A stretch of DNA of 64,000 nucleotides from NCBI GenBank assembly GCA_001632435.1, contig KV423973.1:1-64000 (forward strand). Direction: 5' to 3'. The stretch comes from Calocera cornea HHB12733 (taxonomy: Eukaryota > Basidiomycota > Dacrymycetes > Dacrymycetales > Dacrymycetaceae). Each line of letters begins with the position of its first letter. The first letter of the stretch is position 1. Below, one piece after another: positions 18,847-58,882 of this stretch. The notes under the pieces were generated by a model. It ran no database searches and was not told the origin of the DNA. It was given only the letters and a program-made list of their open reading frames with translations. The translations under genes were made by a program, and so were the position numbers.

Positions 18847-19111
18847 ATGTCCTCAAAGTGCATCGCTGATTAGGACGCGTAAGTATTGGTCACTATTGCT
18901 GTCGTCCCGTCTTGAAGCCACGCAGCACTGCCCATAGATGGGCGTCGGAGACAAGGATGGACTGACCTCCGGCTCCGAGACACTGCTCCCGCGAAAATTC
19001 CAACATCTTCCTGCGCTGCTGTGCGCCCCCATCCGGTTCCGAGTGGCGGTCAGGCTCCAGAGGCAAAAAGTCAATAGATTTAAGTGGTTTCGCACTCCCG
19101 GTTTTAAGTGA

Positions 19112-19198
19112 TGGCGCACTGCGGGATTCGAACTCGCGCGCTTGTGCACGATAATGTTCAGGGCCGCACATGCCCGCCTACCGCTACGCTATACGCGC
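19112..19198 (-). ncRNA. tRNA-like sequence (element copy 1, left repeat)
   Basis: 87 nt. It has an A-box (TAGCGTAGCGG), a B-box (AGTTCGAATCC), a 3' TGCGCCA end and partial acceptor and T-stem pairing. A 7-nt loop ATGTGCG closed by GGGC/GCCC would give anticodon GTG. Read outward from the element. Confidence 0.55.
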
Positions 19199-19418
19199 AA
19201 CGGTGTTAGATACAGCCATTTTGCTTTTTTGACCTGCACGCCAGCTACATAGGGGCCACACACTGCACTCCGCTACACCTGCGTCGCACCGTACATCTAA
19301 AGGGACAGTCACACACCACACAACCACCGACCTCAGACAGCTTCCACAGCAGACACACCGATTTGAACGAGTAGGGAGCGGGAAAATAATCAAATTGAGG
19401 ATGGATTAGGATGTACAG

Positions 19419-19772
19419 GTGCGCCTGTCATATGCCATAATACCTTCTATAGTTCTGGACACTTCATCTAGAATTCAACGGCTGTATGGAAGCGCAGCCG
19501 CTACTACCAACGACAATGATACCTGCTGTCTCACCAGGACTTTGTCTGAGGCATCCACCCCATTCTCCTTCTATGAGTCCGACACATCACTGCGACCTCC
19601 TTCAACCTGCAGCTCCCTACAACGCACGTGGGGCCGTTTGAGCACGGTCTCTCTACATTCAATGGCTCCGCCACTGCAGACAACACCGATACAGTCGGCT
19701 CGCTCGAGCTCGTCGACTCATACATTACTGCATGACCCGGTCATTGGAACACCCCTCAGCGGTCCTGTCTGA
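19419..19772 (+). CDS. Conserved 117-codon ORF inside element copy 1 (doubtful)
   Basis: Open frame starting MRLSYAIIPSIVLDTSS, with about four residue differences from the ORF at 58047-58400 in copy 3. Conservation may simply reflect recent common origin of the elements, because another frame downstream is also preserved. No known domain, and Ser/Thr-rich. Coding status is doubtful. Confidence 0.25.
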   Translation: MRLSYAIIPSIVLDTSSRIQRLYGSAAATTNDNDTCCLTRTLSEASTPFSFYESDTSLRPPSTCSSLQRTWGRLSTVSLHSMAPPLQTTPIQSARSSSSTHTLLHDPVIGTPLSGPV

Positions 19773-20393
19773 CTTTTTAGAGATGATGAGCCGGACAAGC
19801 CAGAGTGTCTTCACCCGGACGGACAGCTTCCCGTAAACCCAGAGTACATTGAGTCCAGCGTCGCAACCGGTCCGACGCATTCACTACAGTCAGCGGTCGG
19901 CAAACATCCATCGGCATGCCCTTCGCGCCTGAGGGTATGGTTGGTGGGTCTCGGGTGAACAACTCAAAGGGCAGGAGCATCCGGAACATGCTTGGCGTGG
20001 TGGAGTCCGTGATGACTCAATGCTGGTGCTGAATGCGGACAAGGCAAAGATGAGTGGTGGTGCTGGCCCTTGCCTGGCTGTTACTGTGCAGTGATCGGGA
20101 ACTAGACAACGAGTAGAAAGTAGACGGGATCCGTCGGCTCATCATAGTGGTCAGACATAGAGTATCGGTGGTGTATCTGTTTGAAATAGGCGTAGGACAC
20201 TAAGCAAGCGTGGCCCGATAATGATGTTTGCAGTGTGTCTGCTGCGCAAGCAGGCTGTCTGAGGTCGGTGGGTGTGTGGTGTGTGAGTGTCCCTTTAGAC
20301 GTACGGTGTGACGTGGGTATACTCAAGTGGAGTGCGTGGTCCCCGAGCTGACGTACAGGTCAAAAAAGCAAAATGGCTGTATCTAACACCGTT

Positions 20394-20480
20394 GCGCGTA
20401 TAGCGTAGCGGTAGGCGGGCATGTGCGGCCCTGAACATTATCGTGCACAAGCGCGCGAGTTCGAATCCCGCAGTGCGCCA
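20394..20480 (+). ncRNA. tRNA-like sequence (element copy 1, right repeat)
   Basis: Same 87-nt module as at 19112-19198, in inverse orientation and reading outward to the right. A- and B-boxes are intact. Confidence 0.55.
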
Positions 20481-21017
20481 TCACTTAAAACCGGGAGTGC
20501 GAAACCACTTAAATCTATTGACTTTTTGCCTATGGAGCCTGACCGCCACTCGGAACCGGATGGGGGCCGCACAGGAGCGCAGGAAGATGTTGGAATTTTC
20601 GCGGGAGCAGTGTCTCGGAGCCGGAGGTCAATCCATCCTTGTCTCCGACGCGCCTCTGCGTGGATCAACTTGCCCTCGTCTACCTCTGTGCCACATTTAG
20701 GCCCCTTGGGGCTCCTCGGTCAAACTAGCAATAGATCAACGCGATGTCTCTCCTGCGGACAGTTTCAAATCAATCACGGCGGTTGTATTCGAACGCGCGC
20801 GTTATCAACTCAACGCGTTCTGGGTCCCCCGAAGCCTGCTTCGGGATGTTAGCCTACCCTGTTCATCTTATTCAGCCTTTACTCGCCATATCAAAACACA
20901 TTACCTTAGTCCAAATTTAGTGCATTATAGATGCAGCTGTAAAACGCAACAGTCAGGCTGGCGCACACTTAATTGTACTTCTCCCTTATGCACTGAGCAC
21001 GACCGCACTAGCTCGAC

Positions 21018-21452
21018 GGTCGAGCTCGCGGTCCCGAACCGAACCGCGAGAACCGTCAGTTCTCGGTTCTGGTCCGGTTCGGTCCAGTCCTCTAGGCCGG
21101 GACCGAGACCGCCCTTCATAGAAACTGCAGAACGGTTTCGGAGAAATCCTGTCAATGACGCAATATTTTCCGCCTCCGGGGCTTAGACTTGTTGCCATCG
21201 ATGTGACTTTGCGTGGGTCAACGGGCTCCAGATGCTGAAAATGCATGTAGCGATGTTCCTAGAGTAATACAGGGATGGTTTGATATCATCTAGTTTGCTT
21301 TCGCCAGGCATTTTTTGCCCGATCATAGAGGGAGGGCCTGAACGGGTTCAGGCAGGACCAGGACCGAAGTGTACCCGGACCGAGAACCGCTTCTGCTCAA
21401 AACATGGAACGGTTCTGGACCAGAACCGGACCGAACCAAACCGGTAGCATCC
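21018..21452. mobile_element. GAACC/GGTTC-rich element flanked by 10-bp direct repeats
   Basis: The 435-bp segment has two clusters of GAACCGAACC/GGTTCTGG motifs at its ends. It is flanked by CTAGCTCGAC at 21008-21017 and 21453-21462, a possible target-site duplication. The right end, ATCCCTA, resembles the terminus of the element at 59746-60281. No coding capacity is seen. Confidence 0.5.
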
Positions 21453-21879
21453 CTAGCTCGACCAGTACACACTCCAGCTTGGCCCGCTGTCAGACCGGCT
21501 CTGGTTACTCGCTTGCGTACGCGCAGAAGGGGACGCTCATGTGACGCACAACCGCTAGTCGCATGGCATATCACCCATGCCGCAGATACACCGCTCTCAT
21601 GATCGTCGCAGACCTTGTCTCGTCGCCTTGAATTTTGTCCCGATCCCAGGGACACCTTCTGACGCCAAATACCACTTGATGAGCGTACTGTGGAACCTCG
21701 CCGATTTCCCGCCTACTCTCCTCGACCGAATGCGCGTTAACCCCTCCAGCATCACTCTCGCCTAGAACCCCCTCAATAGAACGAGCATATGATCGATGAG
21801 GGGAGACGACATTTGCATTATAAGATGTGTCAGACCATTTCGGTCCTGACTCGTTACGACCGCCCCGACTGCCCGCGCT

Positions 21880-22424
21880 CTACCAAGCAAGCACGGCCCA
21901 GAAGCCGAGCGCCGCGCCCGTCGCGGGGCACATAGCCCTGACGAAGTTCAGCGCCGTCCACTTCCTGAGCAGGGCGTGCACCTCGCCCTCCTGCACCGGC
22001 CTCAGCCCGGCGAGCTCGCCCTGCTTCCCCTGGGCGCACTCGTGCAGCCGCCCGTTCGTGCGCGCCATGGCTGTCAAGGTGTAGGGGACGATTGCGAGCA
22101 CGCACGCGCCTGCGGAGGCGAGCAGGGCGCCCTTGGGCGTGGAGAACCCGGCGAGGGAGGCGAGGTAGATGAAGGCGGCGAAGGAGGTGAGCGCGAGGGG
22201 TGGCGCGCGCGCCTTGCCGGCGTTGTAGAGCGCATGCCACTGTTGTGCCGCCAGCAGGGGAGGCGCAAGCGCAACGGCGGGGATGCCGACGGAGAAGGTT
22301 GTGATGAAGCCTGCGGGGCGCATTAGAGGGTGTGGGGAAGGGAGCGAGGACGGGGCGCACCGGAGACGAACATCGCCAGGCCGAGGGCGGCGACCTGCGC
22401 GACAACCGTGAGCGGAGACGACAT
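21880..22424 (-). CDS. DUF1772-like (anthrone oxygenase-like) membrane protein, copy 2
   Basis: Exons 22424-22361 and 22310-21880, joined across a 50-nt intron at the same place as in copy 1, give 164 residues. MSSPLTVVAQVAALGLAMF leads into GFITTFSVGIPAVALAPPLL, QQWHALYNAGKARAPPLAL, ASAGACVLAIVPYTLTAMAR and RKWTALNFVRAMCPATGAAL. Identical intron position and motif order show it is a tandem paralogue of copy 1, about 4 kb away in the same orientation. The linker before the last helix is shorter than in copy 1. Probably an integral membrane protein; no substrate can be named. Confidence 0.8.
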
Positions 22425-22561
22425 TTCAGTGCGGCTTGATGCGGCTTGGATTGGTTTGGTGGACTGGTTGGAAGGCTGGATCGGTGGATCGCGTTGGAGC
22501 GGGACGGGTTGTCTGGGTTCGGTGCGTGTGCTGCTGATCACCTGCTCGCCGTGCAGCGCGC

Positions 22562-22570
22562 GTTATATAC
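22562..22570 (-). promoter_or_regulatory. TATA-like box of DUF1772 copy 2
   Basis: GTATATAAC on the minus strand about 140 bp upstream of the start, matching the position of the TATA-like box in copy 1. Confidence 0.45.
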
Positions 22571-24260
22571 CGCTTGGATGCGGTCAAGGTGCATGGAGCG
22601 CGCGTCGGCCCGCTCCATCCGCGGGCAATCCAGCTCTCCGCCGCCGTCACCGCACTCCAACGCCGCACGCGCAGCTCCTGGAGAGCCCGATCCGCCCCGC
22701 CGACCGCCAAGCCCGGTTACGCATCAGGGAGAAGGCAGACCAGGCGCATGCAAGGCGATACAAACAGTAGTCCAGAACGGTTCGAATTGGGATGCCAATG
22801 CCGATGCCAATGCCGTCAAGCACGGCACGGCGGTGGGAGAGGGACGCGTCGGACTCGGCGCGGCTCCTCCGCAGCCTGCGTGACGGACGGCACTGCGGCG
22901 GCGAGGGTGCGCCGAGGCGTCACGTGACCCTGGGATAGCTGCGAGTGTATACAATACAGTAGTACACTTCGTCTCCACGCTTCTTGGCCCCACGGAGCAG
23001 CGCGGATATGGCGGGAGCGGTGGGAAATAAGGGCGCGTTGGGTCTGCAGTTGTTCGATGAAGGGGTCGATGCGAGCTGCGACTCAGCTGAGCCGGTGGGC
23101 GGCGTACGTGGTCACTGGAGCGAGTTCCGAACAAGGCAGCCTTTCCGCCCGCGGGCGCACGCGGCAGGCATTTGCAAATGTTGTCTAGCGCACGCTGGCA
23201 CCGACCTCGTCCGTTGCGCGGCAGCACCGGGAGCCATGGATGCAGGCTGAGGTCGATATTGGTTAGCTGACGACAGCAGCTGGGTCATGTCATGTCGCGT
23301 CTGCCTCATACATAGTGTCCCCAGTGCTACCCTGCACGCCTACAACACTGTAAAACATCAACCTCACATCGCGTCCCCACCGCACTACTGTCCCGCCCCT
23401 GAGCCGCATGCCGCAATGTCCGCCCGTCCAGGGCGAGGATACGATGTGGCGCAACCGGGGGTGTGGTAAGGGCACTGGCTTTGGGCGGGACGGTGTGATG
23501 TCCAGTGTCCACAGTGCGCAATGTATGAGGGTGATGTCGGCCGCCAGGAGCCGGAAGCCAGTGGGCGCTAGTGGTTGGGCAATTTCGTGCGAAGGGACAA
23601 TGGTATCAGTGCTGCAGCGAGGGGGCGGGCGGGGGGTCATCACGTGCCTGCGCCTGCCGCGACGCGCCGGACATTACGCGCCGGTGGGCGTGCCAGGTCA
23701 GCCGCACAAAGTTCAATGCCGGGCACCTACACCGCGCCCTCGTCACTCCTTCTCGCCGACCCATTCCGCCAGTCAATTCCATCATACCGTCGCCCGCGCA
23801 CTAGGCTTTGGGTTTGCATTGGACGGCACTGGGTGGGTGGGGCCACGCCGATGGACGGCGACCGTGCGCAATGTGCAATGTGCGCTGCCGGGCTGGGGGC
23901 AGCCGGGTGCAGCGGGTGGGCAGGGCGTTGATCGCATCCGGCTCACCCGCCCCGTCCCACCGTCCTCCCATCCACCCGCACCCAGCTCATTACACCCCCC
24001 TCCCGCCCGGTGGGCGAAATTGCACCGATCCCTGCGCTATTCCCGATCAGGCCACCCTCTGCTCGCGAGCAGGACGCGTTGGCGAGCGCGCCCAGCCGAT
24101 CTCGTTCCCTCCGCCCATCTCCTCCCCCGACACCCGGTTGGGCACACCCTGTACAAGCACGACTCAGAGAGGAAGGACCCGAAGCGGGAAGGCTGCCAAG
24201 CTCGAGGCAGGGTCGCGCACGTATTGCACCGTACTGCTAGCCTGATCGGGCCCGACGCAG
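22571..24260. other. Long GC-rich intergenic region
   Basis: About 1.7 kb between divergent genes (DUF1772 copy 2 and the GT90 gene). The first 370 bp share segments with the region upstream of DUF1772 copy 1. The long open frames here are typical of GC-rich DNA and show no family motif. Confidence 0.5.
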
Positions 24261-27027
24261 ATGGATTCACGCTCACGCTCGGGGACTGCGAGCTCGGGTG
24301 GGCGGCCGGCGATGAGCAGCAGCAGCCCACGGCTCGAGCTCGGCACGGTCCCTTTGGCCTCTGCATCCCCGTCCCCAGCGGCAGGCTCCCAACGCACCCC
24401 TCGAGCGCACTACCACCGACACAGGCCGCAGCGCACCCTCACGCGCATCACCCTCCCCTTCACCACCCTCTCCATCGCCCTCGCCCTCTCCGGCGCCCCC
24501 CACACGCGCCCGCTCACCTCGCCCTCCGTCCCCCACCCACCCCTCCCAGCGATGCGCTCGCCCAAACCGCCGTCCTTCGGCCTCTTCGCCGCCTACCCAC
24601 AGGGCCACAACCCGCGCACGCGCATCCCCGCCCTCTACATCCGCGGGTACTACACGCTCCTCTCCCTCTGGCGGCGCACGCGCCTCGCCCGCACCCTCCT
24701 CATCTCAGCGGGAATCATCCTCCTCTTCTTCCGCGTCCTCACCACGCCCCCGCCCCCGCCCCGCTCGACCTACTCGCGCATCCCCGTCCTCCCCCTCCCG
24801 CTAGACGCGAACCCGAGCGCGCTCGGCGCGCGGGGCCCGCTCGAGCCCCACACGTACCTCCCCTCCGGCTTGGTCGTCGTCAACCCGCGCGGCAGGCACC
24901 CGATCTACGAGCTCGTCGAGCGCGCCCAGCGCGAGTGGGAGGAGAAGAACGCGCGCGCGAGCAAGACGCTTGAGCAGGCCGTCAGGGAGTACCAGAGGCG
25001 GTACGGCCGCTGGCCGCCGAGGGGGTTCGACAAGTGGTGCGTGCACCGCCTGAGCTTCGACGCTCTCCTGACCCTATCTCTATGTAGGTGGGCGTATGTG
25101 GAACGACATAACGTGCAGCTGCCGGATGAGTACGACCAGATCCTCGCCGACCTCGTGCCGTACTACGCCTACTCGCCGCGCGAGCTGCGCGCCCTCCAGG
25201 CTCAGTCCCCGCTCTCTGCCGCGGGCAACAACCGCACCTTTACGCTCTCCTCCTCGCGCCTGCACTCCACGCTCCACATCGCGCGCGCGCCCTCCCCCGC
25301 AGCGCGCGAGCGCGCCGAGTCCGCGCTCGATGTCCTGACGGGTGACGGGGAGAGCTGGATGCCCGACCCTGGCTACGTTGACAATGAGGAGTGGGAGGCG
25401 AGCATGGAGGGCATCGGTGTGGGGAGCATCGAGATTGACCTGATGGGCGATGCCGGTAGCTGGGACGCGGTGTTCTCCACTGGGCGGGAGCCGGGCGTCG
25501 TGGTGAGCGAGCAGTGGGCGGACGAGAGGAGGAGGGCGATCAAGAGTGATCGATGTGCGTGATTCATCGTGTCACTGTATGCCACACTGATCAAAGAACA
25601 GTTATGCGCATGACTGGCCGGTATGTGCCGAATCACCGCACGGACACGCCCTGGCCGGACGCGTGCCCGTCCAATTCGGCGATCCACCCGGGACAGGGCG
25701 AGACGTTGTCCCCCCAGTCCAAGTCCTTCATCTACTCCCCGGAGCTCGCGTCCTCCCCCTGCGCCAACCCAGCGCTGATCCCCTTCTCGCCCCTGCTGAA
25801 CCGCACGGCCCGCGCGGACATGGCGCTCAACGACCCGCACACGCCGCTGTTCAGCACGTGCAAGAGCCCCCAGGTGCACGGCGATGTGCTCGTGCCGGAC
25901 GGCAGCCACTGGGTGTACCGCCCGCCGAAGGACGTCCCGTGGGCGAAGAAGCGCGAGGCGCGCCTGGTCTGGCGCGGCCGGCCGTCGGAGGACATCCTCA
26001 GCTCCTCTGCCGCGCAGAGCCAGAGCCAGAAGCCCATGCCCCACGCGCACAGGGGCAAGCGGCCGGCGATGCTCGACCAGTCCTTGCGCCGCTCGGGGAT
26101 TGCAGCCGCGCCGCCCGCGCCGAGGAAGCACCAGGTGCTGCTGCCCTCACACGCCAGCGAGCCCGTCGGCGAGCCCGTCGAGCGGCTGGCGAGCTGGCTC
26201 GAGAAGGAGCTCGCGGACGGGCCGTTCCCCGGGTGGGACGTGCGCCCGCTTGACCTTGCGAATGGGGCTGCGGTCGAGGACCCGCCGCGGAAGAAGAAGG
26301 ACGACTGGCGCGTGCTGGCCAACGTCGTCGATGGCAAGCTCGTCTATGTGAACGAGAGCGAGCCGGCGGGGGTCACCAACCGTACCGCCGATGGCTCGGA
26401 GGGGCGGGCCAACGGCACGAGCGCGCAGAATGCCACCAAGGCGGCTGTGAAGGACAACTCGACTGCTCTGGAGCTGCCGACGGAGTGGGAGCTTCTGGAG
26501 CGGAACAACCAGTACAAATACGTGCTTGACGTGAGTCCCCCCCTCCCCCCTTGGGAGCTGCGCTGCTGCGCGTCAGAGGCAGAGGCTGACGACCGAAATG
26601 CAGATCGACGACCAGTCCTGCTCGCCCTCCTTCCGGCACCTGCTCGCCACGGGCGCGCTGGTGCTCAAGGCGACGGCGTTCGAGGAGTGGTACGCGGACC
26701 GGGTGCAGCCGTGGGTGCACTACGTGCCTGTGCAGCTGGACCTGTCGGACCTGTACGACGCGCTCTCGTTCTTCCGGGGCGACGTGGCGCACGGCGGGGA
26801 GGGCGCCCACGACGCGCTCGCGGCGGAGATTGCGGGTCGGGGGAAGGAGTGGACAGCCAGCTACTGGAGGAGGGAGGACATGACCGCGTATATGGTGCGC
26901 GCCGCTTCGCTGTTGCCGATGAACACGCCCGCTGACGGACCGCCGGCAGTATCGCCTGTTCCTGGAGTACGGCAGGCTCATGTCCGACGACAGGGACAAG
27001 ATGAACTTCTACATGACGCAGCGCTGA
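24261..27027 (+). CDS. CAP10-type glycosyltransferase (GT90 family)
   Basis: Type II membrane glycosyltransferase, presumably of the Golgi and of the family of Cryptococcus Cap10 and animal Rumi/POGLUT. Exons 24261-25036, 25088-25554, 25602-26530, 26604-26894 and 26950-27027 join to 846 residues. A signal anchor (LLISAGIILLFFRVL) lies near residue 150. Then come HPIYELVERAQREWEEKNAR, VREYQRRYGRWPPRGFDKW and, across the first splice, WAYVERHNVQLPDEYDQI. A variable Ser-rich region follows, then STCKSPQVHGDVLVP, VPWAKKREARLVWRG, a second variable insert, LLATGALVLKATAFEEWYAD, WVHYVPVQLDLSDLYDAL and YRLFLEYGRLMSDDRDKMNF. This order is diagnostic. The cytosolic N-terminus is long and low complexity, so the Met at 24315 could be the start. 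Confidence 0.9.
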
Positions 27028-27468
27028 GCCGGTCCCTGCCGACTGGCCGGCCAGAGGCGCTGCCGGACCATATATCATATCATCAGTAATCTACCTACAA
27101 CCTAGAGCATCATTTCACTTCACTTCCCCTCCCCGCGCTTATATTAGCATGTCCAATCCCATACCCAACGCTCAATCAGTATGTGCGAGCGATACAGTAC
27201 TGTTCAATTTGGCGGAAACAGGGAGAGGGGGTGTTACGTAAGCCCCCACGGGGGGGGGGGACAAACGTGCTCGCTCGTCATTCGCCCACTGCCGTGCCTG
27301 TGGGCGGTGGGGACCCTGAGTGAGGGCGTTGCGGACTCGCCTGGGACTGCGCTCCCTTTCCCGCAGAGTAGTGAGTGCAGCAGTCAACGCAGGAGGGGAC
27401 GGCAGTCCACCCACACCCACACTCGCACTCGCACTCCCCATCCTCACCCCCCGTTTCTCTTCCCTCCC
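27028..27468. other. Intergenic up to the gap
   Basis: 3' flank of the GT90 gene and left flank of the assembly gap. Ends in a CACTCGCACTCGCACTC-type repeat, which may explain the assembly break. Confidence 0.5.
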
Positions 27469-28024: not shown

Positions 28025-30332
28025 CCCGCCTCCCCATTCCCCCACCGCCCTCACGCCCGAGCCCTCCCCGCACCTCCTCGCCGTGGACGACAAGAACCAC
28101 CAGCGGGTCATGCTGGACCAGCGCCGCCGTCGCGCCCTGCAGGACCTGGACGAGGCCGTGTTTAGCAAGTTCCATATTCGCACAGTCTGCGTCGCCGGCG
28201 CGGGCTTCTTCACTGGTGAGTCCGAGTCGGCGTGGAGTGGACTGTATGCGTCTGTATGCTGGTACTAACGTCACCCCCCACAGACGCCTACGACATCTTC
28301 GCCATCTCCGTCGGGGCCGTCATGCTTGGCCTGGTGTACAACAACGGCCAGACCTCGCTCGGCGCCGCGGCCGACCTGGGGCTGAAAGTCGCGACGCCCA
28401 TCGGGAACCTGTTCGGGCAGACGCTGTTCGGGTGGATGGCCGATGTGTACGGGAGGAAGAAGATGTACGGGATTGAGCTGGTCATCAGTGCGTGCTGCTG
28501 CTGCTGCTGCCTCTTCCGCCCGTTCCGCACGGGCGGGGATGCGCCGGGACGCTGCTGACGGGATCGGGCGCTCATAGTCATCACGGCGACCCTCGTGCAG
28601 GCCATGGCCGCCCAAGGCCCCAACACCGCCGTGACGATCACGGGCGTGCTCATCTTCTGGCGGTTCATCATGGGCATCGGCATCGGCGGCGACTACCCGC
28701 TCAGCGCCATCATCACCTCCGAGTTCGCCGCCACGCGCATCCGGGGCCGCATGATGACCGCCGTCTTCGCCGGCCAGGGCTTCGGCACCCTCTCCGCCAC
28801 CGTCGTCGCCATCATCTGCGTCGCCGCGTTCAAGGGCAGGATAGAGCGCGAGGGCCCGGCGGGCGTCGACCCGTGCTGGCGCCTCCTCATCGGCCTCGGC
28901 TCCGTCCCCGCCGTCTTCGCCCTCTACTTCCGCCTCTCCATCCCAGAGAGCCCCCGCTTCACCATGGACGTCGAGAGGAACGTGACGGCCGCCGCGCGCG
29001 AGAGCGAGCGCTTCATGCGCACCGCCGGGTACCGGGCCGACCGGGCCGAGTACGCGGGCGCGCAGCTCCTGGAGCTGCGCGCCGAGGCCCCGCGCATGAG
29101 CTGGGCCGACTTCCGCGCGTACTTTGGCCAGTGGAGGAACGGAAAGATCCTCTTCGGCACCGCCTACTCGTGGTTCGCCCTCGACATTGCGTTCTATGGA
29201 CTCGGCTTCAACTCGAGCATCATGCTCAATAAGATTGGATATGGGATACAGGATGTCGTCTGCACGTGAGCTACTCTTGCTTTTTCCCTTGTGCGCGAGG
29301 GGGGATGCGGCTGTGGAATGCGGGATGCGGCTGTGGAATGGGGATGTGCGATGTGCGATGTGGGGGACTGGGATTGGTTGGCAGTGGCTGACCGCGCAAC
29401 AGGGACGCGCCCAACGCCTGCATGTACCAAACGGTGTGGTCCATCTCCCTCGGCTCGGTGATCCTCGCCGCGGCCGGGCTGATCCCGGGGTTCATCGCCT
29501 CCTTCCTCCTGATCGACGTGGTCGGCCGGCGGCCGCTGCAGCTCGCCGGCTTCGCGCTCATGACCGCCATCCTGTGCGCGATGGGCTTCGGCTACTGGGC
29601 CCTGCAGCGCGCCAACGCGTGGTTCGTCGTCCTCTTCTGCCTCGCCAACTTCTGCGCCAACGGCGGGCCCAACACAACCACTTTCGTCATCCCCGGCGAG
29701 GTCTTCCCCACACGGTACAGGAGCACAGCGCATGGGATCTCCGCCGCGTGCGGAAAGTTCGGCGCAGTCATCGCCCAGATCATCTTCTCAAGGCTGCAGG
29801 ATCTAGGCGGCGCGCCCGGGTCCGGGAACTGGATCGGCCATATGTGCGTCCTTTCGCCTTTCTTTTGCTACTGTGTGCAGGGTGGCAGGGCAAGGGTGCT
29901 GATGCAGTGCTCTTGTGCGCAGTCTGGAAATATTCGCCTTCTTCATGCTCACCGGGTGCTTCTCGACGCTTCTCCTCCCGGAAACGAGTGAGTGCGCGCC
30001 TGAAAAGGTGCTCATAAGTCCGGCCCGCGGAGTCGCTGACGCCCTTGGCAGAGCGCAAGTCGCTCGAAGAGCTCTCGAACGAGAACCAGGAAAACTTCAT
30101 CTACGACCTCCACGACGTCCGCCTCCCCGACAGCGTCCTCCTGCACGGCCATCCCGAGCTGGGGCACGCGTTCCCCTACCCCTACCCGTACCGCACCGGC
30201 GCGCAGTACCAGTACACGCAGTACGCCCCCGAGGGCGAGTACTACGATGCTGGCCCCGCGGCGGGGCCGCTCTCGGCCCATGACGTCCAGCTCCACGACA
30301 CCGCCGTGTACTCGCGCGCGGCGCGGCCGTAA
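28025..30332 (+). CDS. PHO84: High-affinity phosphate transporter (PHO84 type, MFS), 5' end in gap
   Basis: Proton-coupled phosphate transporter of the plasma membrane. Exons visible: <28025-28215, 28284-28487, 28578-29265, 29403-29843, 29923-29987 and 30052-30332. Motifs include DAYDIFAISVGAVMLGLVY after the first splice, GWMADVYGRKKMYG (MFS loop), GIGIGGDYPLSAIITSEFA, IPESPRFTMDVERNV, GPNTTTFVIPGEVFPTRYRS and EIFAFFMLTGCFSTLLLPET. These are the hallmarks of fungal Pho84/PHS transporters. The C-terminal tail is long and Tyr/Pro/Gly-rich (HPELGHAFPYPYPYRTGAQ), unlike the short tail of the paralogue at 35144. No start Met is visible after the gap, so the first residues are missing. No internal defect was seen. 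Confidence 0.92.
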
Positions 30333-35143: not shown

Positions 35144-37099
35144 ATGTCCGACTACCCCACGCCAGGCATCGAGAAGACGCAGGAGACGGTGACGCTCGAC
35201 GCGCGGCGGCGCGCCGCGCTCGCCGAGGTCGACCAGGCAAAGTTCTCCTGGTTCCACGTAAAGGCCGTCCTCGTCGCCGGCGTCGGCTTCTTCACAGACG
35301 CATACGACATCTTCGCAATCTCCATCGCAGCCACCATGCTCGGCCTGGTGTATGCGGGCAACACCACCCTGGGCACCAACGCCGATCTCGGCATCAAGGT
35401 CGCCACGCCTGTCGGCACGCTCGTCGGCCAGCTGCTCTTCGGCTGGCTCGCAGATCTCCTCGGCAGGAAGCGCATGTACGGTGTGGAGCTCATGATCAGT
35501 GTGTCCCGCCCTCTTCCTGCCGGAAGTCACGTGCTCACCCGCGCCGGCGCATATAGTCATCGTCGCGACCTTCGGCCAGGCCCTCTCGGCGCAGGGCGAC
35601 CACACCGCCGTGACCATTACAGGCGTGATCGTCGTCTGGCGGTTCATCATGGGCGTCGGCATCGGCGGTGACTACCCGCTGTCCGCCGTGATCACGTCCG
35701 AGTTCGCGGCCACGCGCATCCGCGGCCGTATGATGTGCGGTAAGCCCCTTGAGCCTATAACTGGTCCCCGTGCAGCAGCAGCTTATACGCCAGAATAGCC
35801 GTGTTCGCCATGCAGGGCTTTGGCAACTTCAGCGCCGCGGTGGTGGCGACGGTGGTGACGGTCGCGTACAAGCCGTACATCCTGTCCTCGGGCGTGCAGG
35901 CGGTGGACTACACCTGGCGCCTGCTCATCGGCCTCGGCTGCGTGCCAGCCGTCATTGCGCTCTACTTCCGGCTGACCATCCCCGAGACGCCGCGGTACAC
36001 GATGGACATCGAGCGCAACGTCCTGCAGGCGACGGAGGACGTCGAGCAGTTCCTCGAGAACAAGCCGTACCGCGCCGACCCGGACGCGATCGTCCAGCGC
36101 GTGCAGGCCCCCCGCGCGAGCAGACGCGATTTCGTGGCGTACTTCAGCCAGTGGAAGAACATGAAGGTGCTCATCGGCACGGCCTACTCGTGGTTCGCCC
36201 TCGATATCGGTGAGCCGAGCTATCTGCTGTGTCAGCCCACTTTGCTGACCACAGCCGGGCACTGCAGCCTTCTACGGCCTCGGCTTCAACTCGTCCATCG
36301 TGCTCACCGCCATCGGCTTCGGCACCCCCGCCGGCGCGGCCAACACGAACGAGGGCATGTACCAGACGCTGTACAACGTCTCCACGGGCAACATCATCCT
36401 GGCCGTGGGCGGGCTCATCCCGGGCTACTGGGCCACCTTCATCTTCGTTGACTCGTGGGGCCGCAAGCCGATCCAGCTCATGGGCTTTGCCGTCCTCACT
36501 TGCAGTGCGTGCACCCGTCCATTTCGGCTTTGTTGAGGCAGGAGATGCTGATGAGTGGCGTAAACAGTCTTCTGTGCTATGGGCTTCGGGTTCTGGGCGA
36601 TGAAGACGTCCCAGGCGGCCAAGAGCGCGTTCGTGTGGCTGTACTGCATGGCCAACTTCTTCCAGAACGTGCGTCCAGTCCATCCGCGTCCATGCACGAC
36701 TTCATGAGCTCGAGTAACTGACGTGCGTGCGTGCAGTTTGGCCCCAACTCGACCACCTTCATCATCCCCGGCGAGGCCTTCCCGACGCGCTACCGCTCGA
36801 CCGCGCACGGGATCAGCGCGGCGTCCGGCAAGCTGGGCGCGATCATCGCGCAAGTGGGCTTCTCGCAGCTGCAGAACATCGGCGGGCCGTCCTACTGGAT
36901 CGGCCACATCCTCGAGATCTTCGCCTTCTTCATGCTCACCGGCGTCTTCTCCACGCTCCTCCTCCCGGAGACGAAGCAGCAGACGCTCGAGCAGCTGTCG
37001 AACGAGGACCAGGTCGGATTCGTACAGGACCTCCCCCCAGTCCGCATCGAGGGCGGCGTCATCGTCCCCGTCAAGCAGTTCGAGAATTCTTCGGCGTGA
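35144..37099 (+). CDS. PHO84: High-affinity phosphate transporter (PHO84 type, MFS)
   Basis: Complete gene. Exons 35144-35498, 35557-35739, 35799-36209, 36268-36504, 36568-36668 and 36737-37099 give about 549 residues. It starts MSDYPTPGIEKTQETVTLDA. Then follow KAVLVAGVGFFTDAYDIFAI, GWLADLLGRKRMYG, GVGIGGDYPLSAVITSEFA, IPETPRYTMDIERNV, AFYGLGFNSSIVL, GLIPGYWATFIFVDSWGRKP, GPNSTTFIIPGEAFPTRYRS and EIFAFFMLTGVFSTLLLPET, with a short hydrophilic end. It has all twelve predicted helices and the conserved MFS loops. It shares several splice points with the gene at 28025, so the two arose by duplication; a third, dead copy lies between them. Confidence 0.95.
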
Positions 37100-39400: not shown

Positions 39401-39812
39401 TTGCTGGGACGGTCCAACCTGCTCTGGAATCGACCGTACAGGGCATACAGGAACGATAGTACCGTGTAGTCCCACGAGAGACATATGTATCTGCGGCGCT
39501 GTTACATGACTGTCCTTCTGCGCGTTGGCAGGCGAGGGAAAAAGCACCAATCCGATCGCGGGCCAAATTGGTCGAGTTGGTGCGTTCCTAGGTCGCGTGT
39601 ACATGGCTTGGGATGATAGGAATATGGAGGTGCACAATGCCTATGAAGGGTGATGTACGAATCAAGTAAGCATCGCCCTGTAAGTATACTGAATACTGAA
39701 AGCAGACTGGCAGCGGCGGGGTGGACAAGTATCTCGGAGCCGGGTGGGTGGCCACGGAGCTGCTGTCCACCGTCCCCTGACCGCTCTAGGCGTGCACACG
39801 TTCAGCAGCAGG
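39401..39812. other. Intergenic, no gene seen
   Basis: Between the decayed DUF1772 copy and the second tRNA-armed element. Confidence 0.45.
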
Positions 39813-40085
39813 CATGTCACTGATGTGCATCGCTGACACGCGTAAGTATTGGTCGCGGTCAAAGTCTTCCCGCGTTGAATCCACGCAAGCACTGCGACCA
39901 TGGGCCATGGAGGGGCGTTGGAGACAAGGATGGACGGACATCCGGCTCCGAGACACTGCTCCCGCGAAAATTCCAACATCTTCCCGCCCTCCTGCCCGCC
40001 TACCATCCGGTTCCGAGTGGCGGTCAGGCTTCATAGGCAAAAAGTCAATAGATTTAAGTGGTTTCGCACTCCCGGTTTTAAGTGA

Positions 40086-40172
40086 TGGCGCACTGCGGGA
40101 TTCGAACTCGCGCGCTTGTGCACGATAATGTTCAGGGCCGCACATGCCCGCCTACCACTACGCTATCCGCGC
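40086..40172 (-). ncRNA. tRNA-like sequence (element copy 2, left repeat)
   Basis: 87 nt. Differs from the others at its 5' end (GCGCGGATAGCGTAGTGGTAGG), which makes the acceptor and D-arm look more like a normal tRNA. B-box and TGCGCCA end are intact. Confidence 0.55.
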
Positions 40173-41157
40173 AGCGGTGTCAGCTGAACCCATTTTGCTT
40201 TCTTGTCCTGTACACCCCCTATGGGGCCATGCTGCACACGGTTGCTGGTCGGGTCAAATAGGGTACATGTCGCGCCGTACGTCTTACAATCGCACAACGC
40301 ACAACCACCGACCTCAGACAGCGCGCACCACTTCGTTCAACCTGCAGGTTCTCACAGGGCACGTGGAGCGGTTTAAGTGGGCTCTATCACCATTCACTCG
40401 TGTATCAGTGAAGACAACGGCGAGTCAGTCGGCTCGCTGGAGCGACTCGTCGACCCGCCGTACGGCACTCCACGCGACCCGGCCTGGGTTGAACGCCCTC
40501 CAGCGGTTCTGTCTGACTTCTGGGAGCTGTTGAAGGGACGACCCAGAGTGCCTTAGATGGGACGGGCAGCTCCTGAAAATCCTATAGTAGATTACGTCCC
40601 ACCTCGCAACCGATCCGACCGCGACGAACGCTTGTACACTATAACCAGTTGTCGGCAAACATCTATCGGTATGCCCGTTTCGGCCTCCGGGCATGGATGG
40701 TGCAGATGGGGTGAACGAGTTCATGAGCATGTGGAATGTGCTTGGTGTGATGGAGTTTGTGATGACTCAATGCCGGCACTGAATGCGGACCAGGCGGAGA
40801 TGACTGGCGCTTGCCTGGCTGTAACCTGCAGTGATCTGGAACCAGACGAGGAGTAGCAGGTAGACCGGCGGCCGTCTTGTCAGCATAGTGGCCGGACATA
40901 AAGTATCGGTGGGCTATCCATTCCTAATAGGCGTAAGTTGAGTCATTAATAGAACTTGGCCCATGATGATGTCGCATGTGGTGTGCAGTGTGGCTGCGGT
41001 GCGCGCTGTCTGAGGTCGGTGGTTGTGCGTTGTGCGATTGTAAGACGTACGGCGCGACATGTACCCTATTTGACCCGACCAGCAACTGTGTGCAGCATCA
41101 TGGCCCCATAGGGGGTGTACATGACAAGAAAGCAAAATGGGTTCAGATAACACCGTT

Positions 41158-41244
41158 GCGCGTATAGCGTAGCGGTAGGCGGGCATGTGCGGCCCTGAAC
41201 ATTATCGTGCACAAGCGCGCGAGTTCGAATCCCGCAGTGCGCCA
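41158..41244 (+). ncRNA. tRNA-like sequence (element copy 2, right repeat)
   Basis: Same 87-nt module reading outward to the right. Identical in the boxes to the copy at 20394. Confidence 0.55.
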
Positions 41245-41672
41245 TCACTTAAAACCGGGAGTGCGAAACCACTTAAATCTATTGACTTTTTGCCTATGAA
41301 GCCTGACCGCCACTCGGAACCGGATGGTAGGCGGGCAGGAGGGCGGGAAGATGTTGGAATTTTCGCGGGAGCAGTGTCTCGGAGCCGGACGTCAATCCAT
41401 CCCTGTCCTCCAGCGCCCCTCCATGGCCCACGGTCGCAGTTCTTGCGTGGATTCAAGGCCTTCGTCTACATACATGTGGCATTTAGGCTCCTCGGGGCTC
41501 CTCGGACAGCATAGGAATAGATTAACTTTCGCCCGGACAGTGGCATACCAGTCACCGTGGTTGACATTCGAACGCGCGCGTCAACTCAACGCGTTCTGGA
41601 TCCCCAATCCCATAACCATTGCAATAGAAGTACTTTGGATGACCGCCAGTACCCTGTTTATCTTCCTGAGCT

Positions 41673-52129: not shown

Positions 52130-52163
<34 letters not shown>

Positions 52164-53354: not shown

Positions 53355-53812
53355 GTGCGTTGTTCTGGCGGGTGTGTGCTGGCTGATGGCCCGATTAGGC
53401 AGGGGGGGTTGCTGATTGGGTGTGTGATTGTGTGATGGGAGGATGGGAGGATGCGGACAGAATGGAGCACACCGTGTCCTCCTCACTCTCTGCCCACGCA
53501 CACGCACGCCGAACAGTATGCGCTGGCACGCACAAGGCCTTTATGCCCGCACAACTCGTTGCTCAGCCTCGTGGCGCCCACGAGGACGGACGAATTTCAT
53601 CCCGGGGGCGCGGCTCCGGTGGACTCCAACTACTACTACTAGTTACTGTCACTTAACTGGAAACTGCGGGGTTAAGTGTAATGAACCTGCCGTTGAGCAG
53701 GTCGGATGGGGCATAGGAAGATAGTACCGAGTCAACCAGGTTCAGGATCATGTCTATTGGCGCTTCTCTCAGCAGCTCGTGCGTACATACAGTCTAGCCG
53801 CCCCCGCACGCC
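53355..53812. other. Intergenic, EDC4 promoter side
   Basis: Between the EDC4-like start and the 3' end of the kinase gene. No gene recognised. Confidence 0.5.
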
Positions 53813-54964
53813 CTACTGCCCCAGCGCACGCAGCAGCACCGGGCCCGCCTTCTCCAGCATATCCCCCGGGTTGCTCCTCCCATCGAGCTCGAGCAAGCCC
53901 TGCACCTTGCCCTCCTGGCTGACCAGCGCGCCCTCCACATCGCCGCCCTCGAACAGCGCCCGGTGCGCCTGGACGTACGCGGGCCAGACGATCTGCTCAA
54001 AGTACCCCGGCGGGTCGCGCCAGAGCGTGTTCTCTGCATAGTCGAATTGTTCTGCGTTGTCAGCACCGGCGTGCGGCGTGAGGGGAGGGGGGACGGGAGA
54101 CGGGGGGACACAGGGCAGGGCAGGGGACGTACCGGCTGTATGGTACCCGTGCCTGGCGTGCCGGCGGCGGGCGAGCTCCTCCCTCGGCACCCTAAGGAAC
54201 AGCCTCACGTCCAAGCTGTCGATGACCTTCTCATCCCAGTACATCAGGAACCCATCCACAAGCACCCAGGTGACCTCCTCCTCCGTCCCCGCGAACGCCG
54301 CCTTCCACCGCGCCATGACGGCCGGGTCGACCCCGACCAGCTCCTGCACGTTCAGGTGGTCGTGCGACGCGTGCCCAGGGGGCATCGACCCGTGCTGGTG
54401 GATGTACTGCAGCCCCTGCCGCAGCCGCGGCCAGTCGATCGCACCCGCCGGCGCGTCCCAGTCTTGCACTTTGTAGATTGGGTGGATGGGGATCTGGTTG
54501 CGCGGCTGTGGCGGGCGAGCGGGCGAGCGGAGGGAGCACGAGTGCGAGCGCGAGCAGCAGCAGTAGCAGCAGCAGTAGCAGCAGCAGTAGCAGCAGCAGT
54601 AGCAGTGATGGCGAGCGGAGCGGGGTATAGCGCGTTCTAGTCAGCGCGGCACGCAGAAACAGGAAAGGACTCCGCCCAAACGCACCGGCGCGAAATCATC
54701 CTGATGCACGAGCAGGCTCCCCGGCAGCACGGCCTTCAGGTACTTGGCGAGCGTCGTCTTCCCCGAGCACGTTGCCCCTCTGCGCACACACGCCCCGCAC
54801 CGATCGCAATGTCAGCGCCGGCGGTTGCTTGGAGAGGAGGGGGATGCGCACCCGACGCCGATCATTATCACCCGCTTCTGCTTCTGCTTCTGCTGGGGCT
54901 TGCCCGAGCCCTCCTCCTCCTTTGGCGCCGCAGCGGCGGCGTTCGCGGCGGGCGGTCCAGACAT
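53813..54964 (-). CDS. NRK1: Nicotinamide riboside kinase-like P-loop kinase
   Basis: Phosphorylates nicotinamide riboside to NMN in NAD+ salvage. Exons 54964-54852, 54779-54686, 54505-54133 and 54051-53813 give 272 residues. After an Ala/Lys-rich start come RVIMIGVGGATCSGKTTLA (Walker A, completed by the first splice), LPGSLLVHQDDFAP, and NQIPIHPIYKVQDWDAPAGA with IDWPRL. Then WVLVDGFLMYWDEKVIDSLD (Walker-B-like and lid region), LFLRVPREELARRRHARHGY, and TLWRDPPGYFEQIVWPAYVQ with AHRALFEGGDVEG. This order and the QDDF and WRDPP(G)YF motifs match Nrk1. The 180-nt second intron holds a triplet repeat. Uridine kinase is the nearest alternative, but the D(W)D.P..(I)DWPR segment favours NRK. Confidence 0.92.
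54555..54605. repeat. Imperfect (CAG)n/(TAG) trinucleotide repeat in NRK1 intron
   Basis: AGCAGCAGTAGCAGCAGC-type repeat inside the 180-nt second intron (54506-54685) of the kinase gene. It probably accounts for that intron's unusual length. Confidence 0.75.
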
Positions 54965-55397
54965 GACGGTGTCCTATAATCTAGCAGGGACGTGGGCGAC
55001 GGGGGACTGCAGCAAGTGGGCAGCGCAAGGCGCGCGAGGATAAGGCCGGGAGGAAGGAAGGAAGGCGGTGGGCTCGTGGTCGACGTGGTGAGGTGGTGAG
55101 CCTGGGAAATGGTCCGGGTTGGAAGGTCGCGTGCGCCCTGAGTGCTGAGTGTGCTCGGATAATGACGTGCGCGTCTGGGCGTTCGGCCGTCACGTGTTTG
55201 GAGGAGCCGTTTCTCTCTTTCTCTGCGGTGGTGTCTGTATCTAGGGACGAACGACCCGCGGAGTCGACGGGATGGGCGTGTAGATGTGGAAGAAGAATGC
55301 CGTTGATCGATACAGCGATTACGTCCAAGTCGGGATGATACATTGTCTACAATGAGTCATGCGTTGTCATAACGCTATTACAACGAGGTCGTGCAGA
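54965..55397. other. Intergenic, NRK1 promoter side
   Basis: Between the kinase start and the SPP2 stop. No gene recognised. Confidence 0.5.
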
Positions 55398-56886
55398 TCA
55401 TCTCCGCCGATCTCTGTCCCTATCATCACTCCTTTTCCCGTCCCTGTCCCTATCCCTGTCTCGATAATCCCTGTCCCTGTCCCTCCGGCTGTCGCTCGGC
55501 CTATCCAAGTCTCGGTCGACCTTAGGTCGATCCTGATTACCATCGCGCTCCCGACGGTCCTCTCGGTCCGAGTATCGTCCCTCGTCCCGATCACGCCGGC
55601 GTTCCCGTTCTCGGTCGTAATCCCTATCCCGTTCATGTCGGCGATCCCGGTCTCCGTCACTGGCTGGACGATCCCTATCACGTTCACGCTCGCGGTCCGA
55701 GCGAGAGACAAGCCGGCCTTCGTCGTCGCTGCTTCGTGCGCTTGAGCTCCCACTACGATCGCCATTGGCTCTAACCTGCGAAAGAACGATCAACACACAG
55801 CACAAAGCTTCAGTAGTAAACAGGCTGTACCTCAGCAACTCGCTTCACCAGCGGTACATACTTCATCGCAGCCTTCCTGCCCTTCGGTAGTTCATCCTTG
55901 TGCACCGTGTCCTCAGGCCTTGCTTTGGCACCCAGGCCCAAAAATGCGGGCCGCGCTTTCGGCACCCACGGCTCAGCCAGCCCTGTACGGGTCCTGCTCG
56001 CTGCTTGTCCCTCTTTCCATCCCATTCCACGTAGCAGGGCTGCTCCGAACTGCTCAATCGGTACACGCTGATAGTCCTCCATGGTCGGGGTGTCAGGGCG
56101 CGTCTCCACATCTTCCATGTACGCTTCGGTCTCAGAAGGGGTGTGCATTGGGATGGCAGCGATCTGCGGGGTGTCATCTTCGCCGGTGAGCAGGGCTCGC
56201 AGGGCCCGTTGCTCGAGCGTTTCTTCCACCTCCATCTTCACTTCGGTGGTATCGCCATCAGGCTCAACCTTGACCTCGACTTTCTCCTCGATCTTGATGT
56301 CTTCGACCTTTGGTGCGGCTAATGTTAATCCAGCCAGCTGAGGTCCTGAGTTGATGACGTCCTTGGTGTCGACATCACCGCTCTTTTCGGCCGCGGCTCG
56401 CTCCCTAGCGCCAGGCGGGAGGAAGCGATCCGGGACGGCGCGCTTTGCATACGAGCTTTGGCGCCAGTCTCTATTCGGGAGTGGTGCAATGACCAGCGGT
56501 GCGGTTGCTCCTTGTCGCGGCTTTGAAGCTCTAGACGAGGCTGGCGGTGAGTTGCGGCCTGGCCGTGAAGAAACGTTAGAAGTTGCGCACCGCTCGACCC
56601 CTAGCTCATCAAAGCCGGTGATGATCTCGTCCTCCGTCCCCTCTTCATCGCTGCTGTCCGGCTGAGCTACCGGAAACCGGCGTTTTGCGCCAGCTAGAGG
56701 GCTTGGACCGGAGGTAAGAGACGACTTGGAGCGAGCCAGTCCTGGCGGAACGGGACGACCGCCGCTCGTCGGGTGAGTTGGAGGTCGCTCGAGATCCAAT
56801 CCGCTGCGGGATGACGGCTGAGACACCTGAGGGGATCCCGAGGGCGTCGGGCGGCGAATTGTAAACGAAAGCTTGCCTTGCGACAT
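55398..56886 (-). CDS. SPP2: Pre-mRNA splicing factor SPP2-like, G-patch protein
   Basis: Spliceosomal G-patch protein, which in yeast activates the helicase Prp2. Two exons, 56886-55831 and 55775-55398, with a 55-nt intron, give about 477 residues. The start MSQGKLSFTIRRPTPSGSP is typical of SPP2/GPKOW. A Ser/Pro-rich N-terminus and ITGFDELGVERC follow, with APLPNRDWRQSSYAKRAVPD and RFLPPG. The G-patch is DYQRVPIEQFGAALLRGMGW followed by KEGQAASRTRTGLAEPWVPK, then RPAFLGLGAK. After the splice comes a long Arg/Asp-rich tail of DRDRDR-type repeats that yeast Spp2 lacks. The G-patch context is specific to this family. Confidence 0.92.
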
Positions 56887-57162
56887 CCTCTAAGCTGGTG
56901 GACGAAGCAGAACAAGAATCGAGCAGGCGGTGTGCGCATGGGTGGCGCAGGGCTCTAGTCACACCGGAACCGAAGCACAGCCACTCGGAGGCGTTGACCG
57001 GTCAAGTGAATGGGGCGTCGACTAGGAGGAGACGGAAGTTCACCGGTGTCTGGCGGTGGTACGTCCATCAGGTATCATTGGTACAGTCCATTGCCGTGAA
57101 CGACGTCATGATGCTCTCTGTTCGCGCCGTTTTTATCTCGCATTTATCTGAAGGTGGCAAGG
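56887..57162. other. Intergenic, SPP2 promoter side
   Basis: Short region between the SPP2 start and the third element. No gene recognised. Confidence 0.5.
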
Positions 57163-57338
57163 TGAAGGGCACGAAGGAGGCATGATTGTGCCCTTCGGCT
57201 CGGAGACACTGCTCCCGCGAAAATTCCAACATCTTCCCGCCCTCCTGCCCGCCTACCATCCGGTTCCGAGTGGCGGTCAGGCTTCATAGGCAAAAAGTCA
57301 ATAGATTTAAGTGGTTTCGCACTCCCGGTTTTAAGTGA

Positions 57339-57425
57339 TGGCGCACTGCGGGATTCGAACTCGCGCGCTTGTGCACGATAATGTTCTGGGCCGCACATGC
57401 CCGCCTACCGCTACGCTATACGCGC
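57339..57425 (-). ncRNA. tRNA-like sequence (element copy 3, left repeat)
   Basis: 87-nt module with intact A- and B-boxes, reading outward to the left. It shares one base change (GGCCCAGAAC) with its partner at 58621. Confidence 0.55.
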
Positions 57426-58046
57426 AACGGTGTCAGATCCAGCCATTTTGCTTTTCTGACCTGCACGCCAGCTACATAGGGGCCACACACTGCACTCCGC
57501 TACACCTGCGTCGCACCGTACATCTAAAGGGACAGTCACACACCACACAACCACCGACCTCAGACAGCTTCCACAGCAGACACACTGCAAACATCATTAT
57601 CGGGCCACGCTTGATTAGTGTCCTACGCCTATTTGCAACAGATACACCACCGATACTCTATGTGCGACCACTATGATGAGCCGACGGGTCCCGTCTACTT
57701 TCTACTCCTTGTCTAGTTCCCGATCACTGCACAGTAACAGCCAGGCAAGGGCCAGCACCACCACTCATCTTTGCCTTGTCCGCATTCAGCACCAGCATTG
57801 AGTCATCACGGACTCCACCACGCCAAGCATGTCCGGGATGCTCATGCCCTTTAAGTTGGTTCACCCGAGACCCACCAACCATGCCCTCAGGCGCGAAAGG
57901 CATGTCGCTGGATGTTTGCCGACCGCTGACTGTAGTGAATGCGTCGGACCGGTTGCGACGCTGGACTCAATGTACTCTGGGTTTACGGGAAGCTGCCCGT
58001 CCGGGTGATGACACTCTGGCTTGTCCCCCTCAACATCTCTAAAAAG

Positions 58047-58400
58047 TCAGACAGGACCGCTGAGGGGCGTTCCAATGACCGGGTCGTGCAGTAATATATG
58101 AGTCGACGAGCTCAAGCGAGCCGACTGTATCGGTGTTGTCTGCAGTGGCGGAGCCATTGAATGTAGAGAGAGCGTGCTCAAACGGCCCCACGTGCGTTGT
58201 AGGGAGCTGCAGGTTGAAGGAGGTCGCAGTGATGTGTCGGACTCATAGAAGGAGAATGGGGTGGATGCCTCAGACAAAGTCCTGGTGAGACAGCAGGTAT
58301 CATTGTCGTTGGTAATAGCGGCTGCGCTTCCATACAGCCGTTGAATTCTAGATGAAGTGTCCAGAACTATAGAAGGTATCATGGCATATGACAGGCGCAC
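58047..58400 (-). CDS. Conserved 117-codon ORF inside element copy 3 (doubtful)
   Basis: Counterpart of the ORF at 19419 in copy 1 (starts MRLSYAMIPSIVLDTSS). Few differences, no known domain. Coding status is unproven. Confidence 0.25.
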   Translation of the reverse strand: MRLSYAMIPSIVLDTSSRIQRLYGSAAAITNDNDTCCLTRTLSEASTPFSFYESDTSLRPPSTCSSLQRTWGRLSTLSLHSMAPPLQTTPIQSARLSSSTHILLHDPVIGTPLSGPV

Positions 58401-58620
58401 CTGTACATCCTAATCCATCCTCAATTTGATTATTTTCCCGCTCCCTACTCGTTCAAATCGGTGTGTCTGCTGTGGAAGCTGTCTGAGGTCGGTGGTTGTG
58501 TGGTGTGTGACTGTCCCTTTAGATGTACGGTGCGACGCAGGTGTAGCGGAGTGCAGTGTGTGGCCCCTATGTAGCTGGCGTGCAGGTCAGAAAAGCAAAA
58601 TGGCTGGATCTGACACCGTT

Positions 58621-58707
58621 GCGCGTATAGCGTAGCGGTAGGCGGGCATGTGCGGCCCAGAACATTATCGTGCACAAGCGCGCGAGTTCGAATCCCGCAG
58701 TGCGCCA
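58621..58707 (+). ncRNA. tRNA-like sequence (element copy 3, right repeat)
   Basis: 87-nt module with intact A- and B-boxes, reading outward to the right. Confidence 0.55.
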
Positions 58708-58882
58708 TCACTTAAAACCGGGAGTGCGAAACCACTTAAATCTATTGACTTTTTGCCTATGAAGCCTGACCGCCACTCGGAACCGGATGGTAGGCGGGCA
58801 GGAGGGCGGGAAGATGTTGGAATTTTCGCGGGAGCAGTGTCTCCGAGCCGAAGGGCACAATCATGCCTCCTTCGTGCCCTTC

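Follow-up and report, generated by a model that had tools for sequence, protein, structure and literature searches.

Mirrored pairs of a probable RNA polymerase III-type small-RNA gene family in a few clusters of the Calocera cornea genome

Pack-type terminal-inverted-repeat (TIR) transposons and miniature inverted-repeat transposable elements (MITEs) have long inverted arms around a gene fragment. In fission yeast, inverted repeats are found together with RNA polymerase III (Pol III) promoter boxes: the mating-type boundary IR-L contains five B boxes (PMC4502379), centromeric tDNA barriers lie inside inverted repeats (PMC2040200) and, going by the available parts of these two sources, inverted repeats of this kind can organize chromatin. 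Fungal short interspersed elements (SINEs) can be low-copy, and AfuSINE2 is reported, in the accessible portion of its description, with 4-14-bp target duplications (PMC5063351). Neurospora has microRNA-like RNAs (milRNAs) made by Pol III; in the sections available, neither an A box nor a B box is predicted for milR-1, and a tRNA precursor gives rise to milR-4 (PMC3547838). Here we describe a family of inverted-repeat loci carrying Pol III-type boxes in the basidiomycete Calocera cornea HHB12733, three of which lie in bases 1-64,000 (forward strand) of contig KV423973.1 (GCA_001632435.1; this 64-kb stretch is called the window, the 172,075-bp contig C60, and other contigs of the 32.1-Mb genome are named in the same way). 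The first-pass annotation of the window knew of no named class with this design, and we likewise found no such element among the matches listed from the open-licence literature.

On balance we favor the reading that these loci contain a constrained and, it appears, so far undescribed family of small-RNA genes of the Pol III type, arranged as mirrored pairs and confined to a few clusters, which behaves more like a host gene set than like jumping DNA. Each arm would be a type-2 Pol III gene with internal A and B boxes and a T4-T8 run as terminator, and its product would be a structured RNA of ~140 nt that has ceased to be a tRNA.

Mirrored arms in the window and in the genome

Each of the three window loci has two inverted arms of ~420-460 nt around a centre of ~0.67-0.88 kb (0.8-1.1 kb had been estimated before), and an outward-facing module of ~90 nt is present in all six arms at 97.8-100% identity, which confirms the earlier description of three loci with inverted repeats and outward modules. 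Around each module we predict a Pol III unit, followed within ~100 bp downstream by a conserved 44-bp DNA element, box G. At locus 1, the inverted-repeat comparison places the left arm at 18936..19358 on the minus strand, with its unit pointing leftward, and the right arm at 20233..20657 on the plus strand. The left unit (19065..19206, minus) has its A box from 19191, a B box, and a T-run at 19065-19069 that was read from the sequence (an A-run on the plus strand), and the right unit (20386..20527, plus) has its A box from 20401 and its T-run at 20523-20527; the boxes G are at 18969..19012 (minus) and 20581..20624 (plus). Locus 2 repeats this layout with a left arm at 39872..40329 (minus; unit 40039..40180, box G 39942..39985) and a right arm at 40998..41459 (plus; unit 41150..41291, box G 41345..41388). 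About 115 bp to the left of the locus 2 arm, window positions 39728-39759 hold a relic (91%) of the box-G edge of the type found on C12 and C77. At locus 3, the left arm (57163..57585, minus; unit 57292..57433, box G 57195..57238) is 100% identical to the right arm (58461..58883, plus; unit 58613..58754, box G 58808..58851).

The arms are 92% and 96% identical within loci 1 and 2, respectively, and the arms of the three copies match each other with BLAST E-values of <=7e-123. Copies 1 and 3 are 95% alike across 1.67 kb in opposite orientation, their common homology ending at the box-G edges, and the centre of copy 2 is ~75% like those of copies 1 and 3. The repeats had been taken for the termini of an element; since copies 1 and 2 remain homologous past the arms at either side (as far as 18858 and 20829), the arms do not mark the ends of a unit in these two copies, and copy 3 could be bounded by its own arms. 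No direct-repeat family of >=30 nt was found at the three loci, which sets the family apart from terminal-repeat retrotransposons in miniature, as had been proposed.

Family units were counted as sites with the conserved 15-mer CACTTAAATCTATTG, a definition that leaves the more diverged units 2 and 3 (see below) outside the count. The genome-wide scan gave 26 units (23 exact and three one-mismatch sites), 18 of them on C60, three each on C12 and C77, and one each on C2 and C117, so that the abundance in the genome predicted from the three window loci did not hold up. The exact 15-mer does not occur outside the family anywhere in the genome, and with up to two mismatches there are 38 sites vs. 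nine for the reversed control. Two one-mismatch sites, on C235 and C278, were examined and judged to be non-members. Motif scanning of C60 covered 164,000 of its 172,075 bases, the remainder being covered by the genome-wide searches. The 18 C60 units form nine pairs spanning 116 kb, numbered here as loci 1 to 9 and positioned at ~19.8, 40.7, 58.0, 72.4, 81.9, 94.9, 107.7, 123.4, and 133.7 kb; seven pairs are divergent and two, at 81-84 kb and 94.6-95.1 kb, are convergent (inward-facing). C12 and C77 have one convergent pair and one single unit each, the single unit on C12 having a relic inverted partner, and the units on C2 and C117 are singles. In total, there are seven divergent pairs, four convergent pairs, and four singles. 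The first-pass annotation had reasoned that tRNA-like units found mostly alone, paired by chance around unrelated centres, would indicate an ordinary SINE; in fact 22 of the 26 units belong to pairs, and the centres of most are related.

Pol III boxes, conserved blocks, and the predicted RNA

In the units, an A box is repeatedly followed by a B box and a T-run, the layout of a type-2 Pol III gene. Scanning both strands of 164 kb of C60 for an A box, a B box, and T4 in combination gave 15 matches, all at family units (15 of the 18), while 30 order-2 Markov sequences of the same length gave a mean of 0.07 and a maximum of one. Outside C60 the scan detected the counted unit (unit 1) on C2 (1/1), C117 (1/1), and C12 (3/3) and none of the three on C77, where the B box is altered; the units missed on C60 are the interrupted one at 82.4 kb, 6R, and 7L (L and R denote the left and right unit of a locus). 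It also found, in four places on C12 and C77, unit 2, a second Pol III-like module that is convergent with unit 1 and faces it. A more diverged unit 3 faces unit 1 to the right of loci 1, 2, 7, and 9, and is present near loci 5 and 6. In the window it was recognized by eye in the right flank of locus 1 (20740..20880, minus, facing unit 1R), with A-box-like and B-box-like stretches and the relic ATCTATTG..TTTGAC, and in the right flank of locus 2 (41534..41661, minus).

Next, block conservation was compared among eight C60-type units (1R, 2R, 4R, 7R, 8L, 9L, C117, and C2) and five of the six C12/C77 units; loci 3, 5, and 6 stand outside this table, and the blocks were delimited after viewing the alignment. 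Alignment A1 has 19 rows and A2 has 22 rows, one of the identical 3L and 3R being kept and 5L, 5R, and 6L, whose outer ends are rearranged or interrupted, being omitted. Among the eight units, identity is high in the B-box stem (0.985), the middle (0.976), the stretch from the E box to the T-run (0.965), box G (0.955), and the post-B block (0.940), intermediate in the A-box hairpin (0.879) and box F (0.857), and low upstream (0.632 and 0.721), in the hairpin loop (0.668), after the T-run (0.630), in the F-G gap (0.775), and after box G (0.744). The centres are 0.63-0.75 identical between loci, the exception being the recent pair 1/3 (0.96). Against the five C12/C77 units, the eight have kept box G (0.949), the E box to T-run (0.890), the middle (0.855), box F (0.839), and the B stem (0.791), and have diverged upstream (0.45-0.51), in the post-B block (0.50), and in the 41 columns after box G (0.304). 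Of the 158 columns that are invariant in the C60 type, 91% match the C12/C77 consensus, as opposed to 56% of the 75 variable columns. Because conserved and free blocks alternate at a scale of 10-30 nt, selection appears to act on each copy. Some of the similarity may also come from gene conversion between loci, which would hardly produce such an alternation.

A 25-mer of box G has 22 sites in the genome at up to three mismatches, vs. none in the control, and 21 of them are inside units. A lone box G at C225:9088-9155 stands without a Pol III unit and is flanked by two inverted similar genes.

The module had been called tRNA-like, and this was half right: Pol III A and B boxes are present, but the cloverleaf is poorly kept (acceptor and T-stem cells paired in 72.4%, one pair never formed) and the Rfam tRNA score is 18.4 bits against a cut-off of 29. 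ARAGORN without introns found no tRNA in the window, and the units are absent among the 40 tRNA matches listed genome-wide (63 of 562 candidates scored). On these grounds we rejected true tRNA genes. No Rfam model reaches its cut-off in the stretches scanned, one of the scans giving nothing at E up to 1. With no tRNA fold kept and a conserved T-run belonging to it, the module has the appearance of a discrete Pol III gene, and we read the unit as a type-2 Pol III gene in preference to a tRNA. The predicted RNA of ~140 nt could form six short helices, whose pairs are retained in 98.6% of cells. We infer transcription by Pol III, a function of the RNA, selection on each copy, and whatever role box G may have.

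Several points weigh against this reading. The A-box spacing in the box scan was relaxed after a stricter spacing had given zero matches. ARAGORN with introns calls six units as tRNAs on the stretches scanned (five Asp and one Cys; all its calls are at units, none in the window), and therefore some tRNA character is retained. The fold is plausible rather than proven, because no pair has changed on both sides in a compensatory manner and 138 of 500 shuffles pair equally well; the pair retention was measured in the same alignment that yielded the structure, and for three units the z-scores of folding come out modest (-1.45 to -2.26). Nor does the predicted RNA take in box G, which this reading leaves unexplained. 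C60-type and C12/C77-type units can be aligned over only ~240 nt, from near the predicted start to the box-G edge, a stretch that constraint after saturation could leave and a small mobile unit with those ends could leave equally. Finally, conservation was measured between copies within one genome alone.

Duplicated segments and neighboring genes

Translated searches detected decayed copies of an M20-peptidase-like gene in the centres of loci 1, 2, 3, 8, and 9, and a 37-residue trace of it at locus 7 (E 9e-4). In the window these are the 3' part of the gene in locus 1 (19607..20052, plus, by tblastn) and copies in locus 2 (40342..40767, plus) and locus 3 (57766..58212, minus). The most complete copy adjoins locus 5, and M20 domains were matched there; the relic is thus in or next to seven of the nine C60 loci, with no match in loci 4 and 6 by translated searches. 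We take the gene to be carboxypeptidase-S-like. A paralogue with longer open frames is located at 112.4-113.9 kb of C60; in the single piece of it that was scanned, the M20 domain was not found. The centre of locus 4, where no peptidase relic was detected, contains an imperfect palindrome of 521 nt (79%) at C60:72061-72581. On C77, the units adjoin a 3.4-kb segment with Argonaute-like sequence that is present twice (C77:45634-48995 and 87623-91000; stops in the six-frame reading may be introns); the two copies are oppositely oriented and 77% alike. An F-box-like gene adjoins the C117 unit; it is weakly related to open reading frames (ORFs) close to loci 5 and 6, which are also relatives of one another.

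Because the duplicated segments take in neighboring genes, DNA duplication is favored over retroposition. Homology among the C60 loci begins well before the predicted start and takes in unique flanking sequence. We propose that the family spread by DNA-level duplication of chromosome segments, which would often have carried a neighbor gene along (M20-peptidase-like on C60, Argonaute-like sequence on C77), and that units were repeatedly laid down as mirror images. Purifying selection would maintain the units while the intervening gene copies decay, and patchy gene conversion may keep the arms of some pairs alike. In adjoining ungapped stretches the two arms of locus 1 agree at 99, 95, and 84%, a stepwise identity that fits patchy conversion. 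In a tree of 25 of the 26 units (5R omitted), in which the bootstrap had not settled, the arms of one locus are sisters in five of ten pairs (loci 2, 3, 4, and 9 and the C12 pair); at loci 6, 7, and 8 the arms either cluster with those of other loci or are unresolved, as are locus 1 and the C77 pair. Gene conversion as the cause of arm identity is suggested by these patterns.

Elsewhere in the window, the neighboring stretches 28279-29843 and 35293-36909 are 70-73% alike, the former with a sugar/MFS transporter match. A mating-type region was considered for C60 and rejected, as the STE3 matches are all on C41 and none on C60.

Alternative explanations and comparison with known systems

A non-autonomous DNA transposon with long inverted repeats and a captured peptidase fragment (Pack-type or foldback), hopping locally, is an alternative that we regard as unlikely, even though divergent pairs do enclose a gene fragment, the homology of loci 1 and 3 and that between the two groups end at box-G edges, and the clustering suits local hopping. 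Flanking direct repeats within 170 nt of the box-G ends of the seven divergent loci were at best 4-7 nt long, within the 4-9 nt seen in 42 mismatched flanks; this test is not final, because the element ends are uncertain and most copies are old, so that old duplications may have decayed. Moreover, there are merely 26 units, singles and inward-facing pairs also occur, shared sequence extends beyond the arms of copies 1 and 2, and neutral decay after insertion gives no conserved blocks beside near-saturated ones. No transposase belonging to the family was found. A longer autonomous relative with the same ends had been suggested as a thing to look for; in whole-genome DNA searches with two copies, the best candidates (21 and 23 scored) were all known units. 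The longer copy E8 was rejected as such a relative, its extra 3 kb being a different inserted element with its own inverted ends and a weak DDE_1 match. Of the single element architecture originally proposed, the repeated layout with related centres stands, whereas a mobile TIR element is not supported, given the clustering, the singles, the inward pairs, and the lack of flanking repeats above background.

Two real insertions into the family show, by eye, clear inverted ends and short flanking repeats. The ~3-kb insert at C60:121199-124169, just upstream of a family unit (121 kb), has 73-nt inverted ends that are 98.6% alike, CGCACAC on both flanks, and a DDE_1 match under the cut-off. The 534-nt insert at C60:81784-82317, within the 82.4-kb unit, has the inverted ends GAGCCCGTTCGGTAA and is presumably akin to Tourist-type MITEs.

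Chromatin boundary or genome-organizing elements, with TFIIIC on the A and B boxes and a second protein on box G delimiting ~14-kb domains, seem to us a rather improbable explanation. The spacing of the nine C60 loci is even (mean 14.2 kb, coefficient of variation 0.246, P = 3e-4 vs. uniform placement, in a post hoc test that ignores gene layout), both C12 loci and one C77 locus sit between convergent genes as judged by ORF orientation, and inverted repeats with B boxes are shared with IR-L, the tDNA barriers in fission-yeast inverted repeats being a further parallel (PMC4502379; PMC2040200; available parts). TFIIIC binding alone, however, would not account for conservation of the T-run, the 3' E box, and the sequence that separates the two boxes, and there is no sign of a silent domain, since the intervals between C60 loci hold genes with ordinary Pfam domains. 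A combined version, in which a hitherto unknown Pol III RNA in evenly spaced mirrored pairs, together with its DNA box, partitions or marks a chromosome region, each pair serving as RNA gene and domain anchor and the mirror layout being selected, is speculative and likewise rather doubtful.

Hairpin-RNA loci, from which RNA polymerase II read-through would feed long double-stranded RNA into an Argonaute pathway, perhaps against the peptidase gene, are a very improbable source of the pattern. The perfect 423-bp arms of locus 3 would suit them, as would the Piwi-domain matches at at least seven genome loci (two each on C77, C9, and C3, and one on C11) and the Pol III-made microRNA-like RNAs of Neurospora described in the available text (PMC3547838). 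Against them, single units are unable to form such a hairpin, and it is the Pol III unit and box G, rather than the centre, that are most strongly conserved. Ordinary tRNA-derived SINEs paired by chance are highly improbable: Pol III boxes on a non-tRNA body, the existence of low-copy fungal SINEs (PMC5063351, as far as available), and between-group homology starting near the predicted start speak for them, but the C60 copies do not begin at the transcription start, their homology continuing upstream and through the flanks, the T-run is kept inside the unit, and pairing with mostly related centres is the rule.

If the Pol III gene family is real, it adds an RNA family outside the Rfam models at their cut-offs (in the stretches scanned), and offers, in a fungus where several Argonaute-like loci occur, a setting for two direct questions: is there selection for pairing Pol III genes in mirror image, and do evenly spaced Pol III units organize a region of a chromosome? 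It also cautions that an inverted repeat with a tRNA-like part need not be a MITE or a SINE.

The family resembles Pack-type TIR transposons in its long inverted arms enclosing a gene fragment, and differs from these and from MITEs in that no target duplications above background were found at the seven divergent loci, the copies are few, singles and inward pairs exist, the arms appear constrained, and those of copies 1 and 2 are non-terminal. With AfuSINE2 it has in common A and B boxes, a tRNA-unrelated 3' region, and low copy number; unlike what the available part of that report describes for AfuSINE2, no target duplications were detected, and sequence common to the C60 loci extends ahead of the start and to either side (PMC5063351). 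Like the Neurospora milR-1 and milR-4 loci, it would provide Pol III small RNAs beyond the tRNA set, here predicted ones, and it differs in being a mirrored family, none of which is described in the accessible portion of PMC3547838. With IR-L/IR-R and the tDNA barriers it shares inverted repeats bearing Pol III promoter boxes (PMC4502379; PMC2040200). As far as the available parts of these two sources go, the fission-yeast boundaries are one pair around one silent domain with B boxes alone or true tRNA genes, whereas the nine C60 pairs of the Calocera family are interspersed with ordinary genes and combine a conserved non-tRNA body with A box, B box, and T-run.

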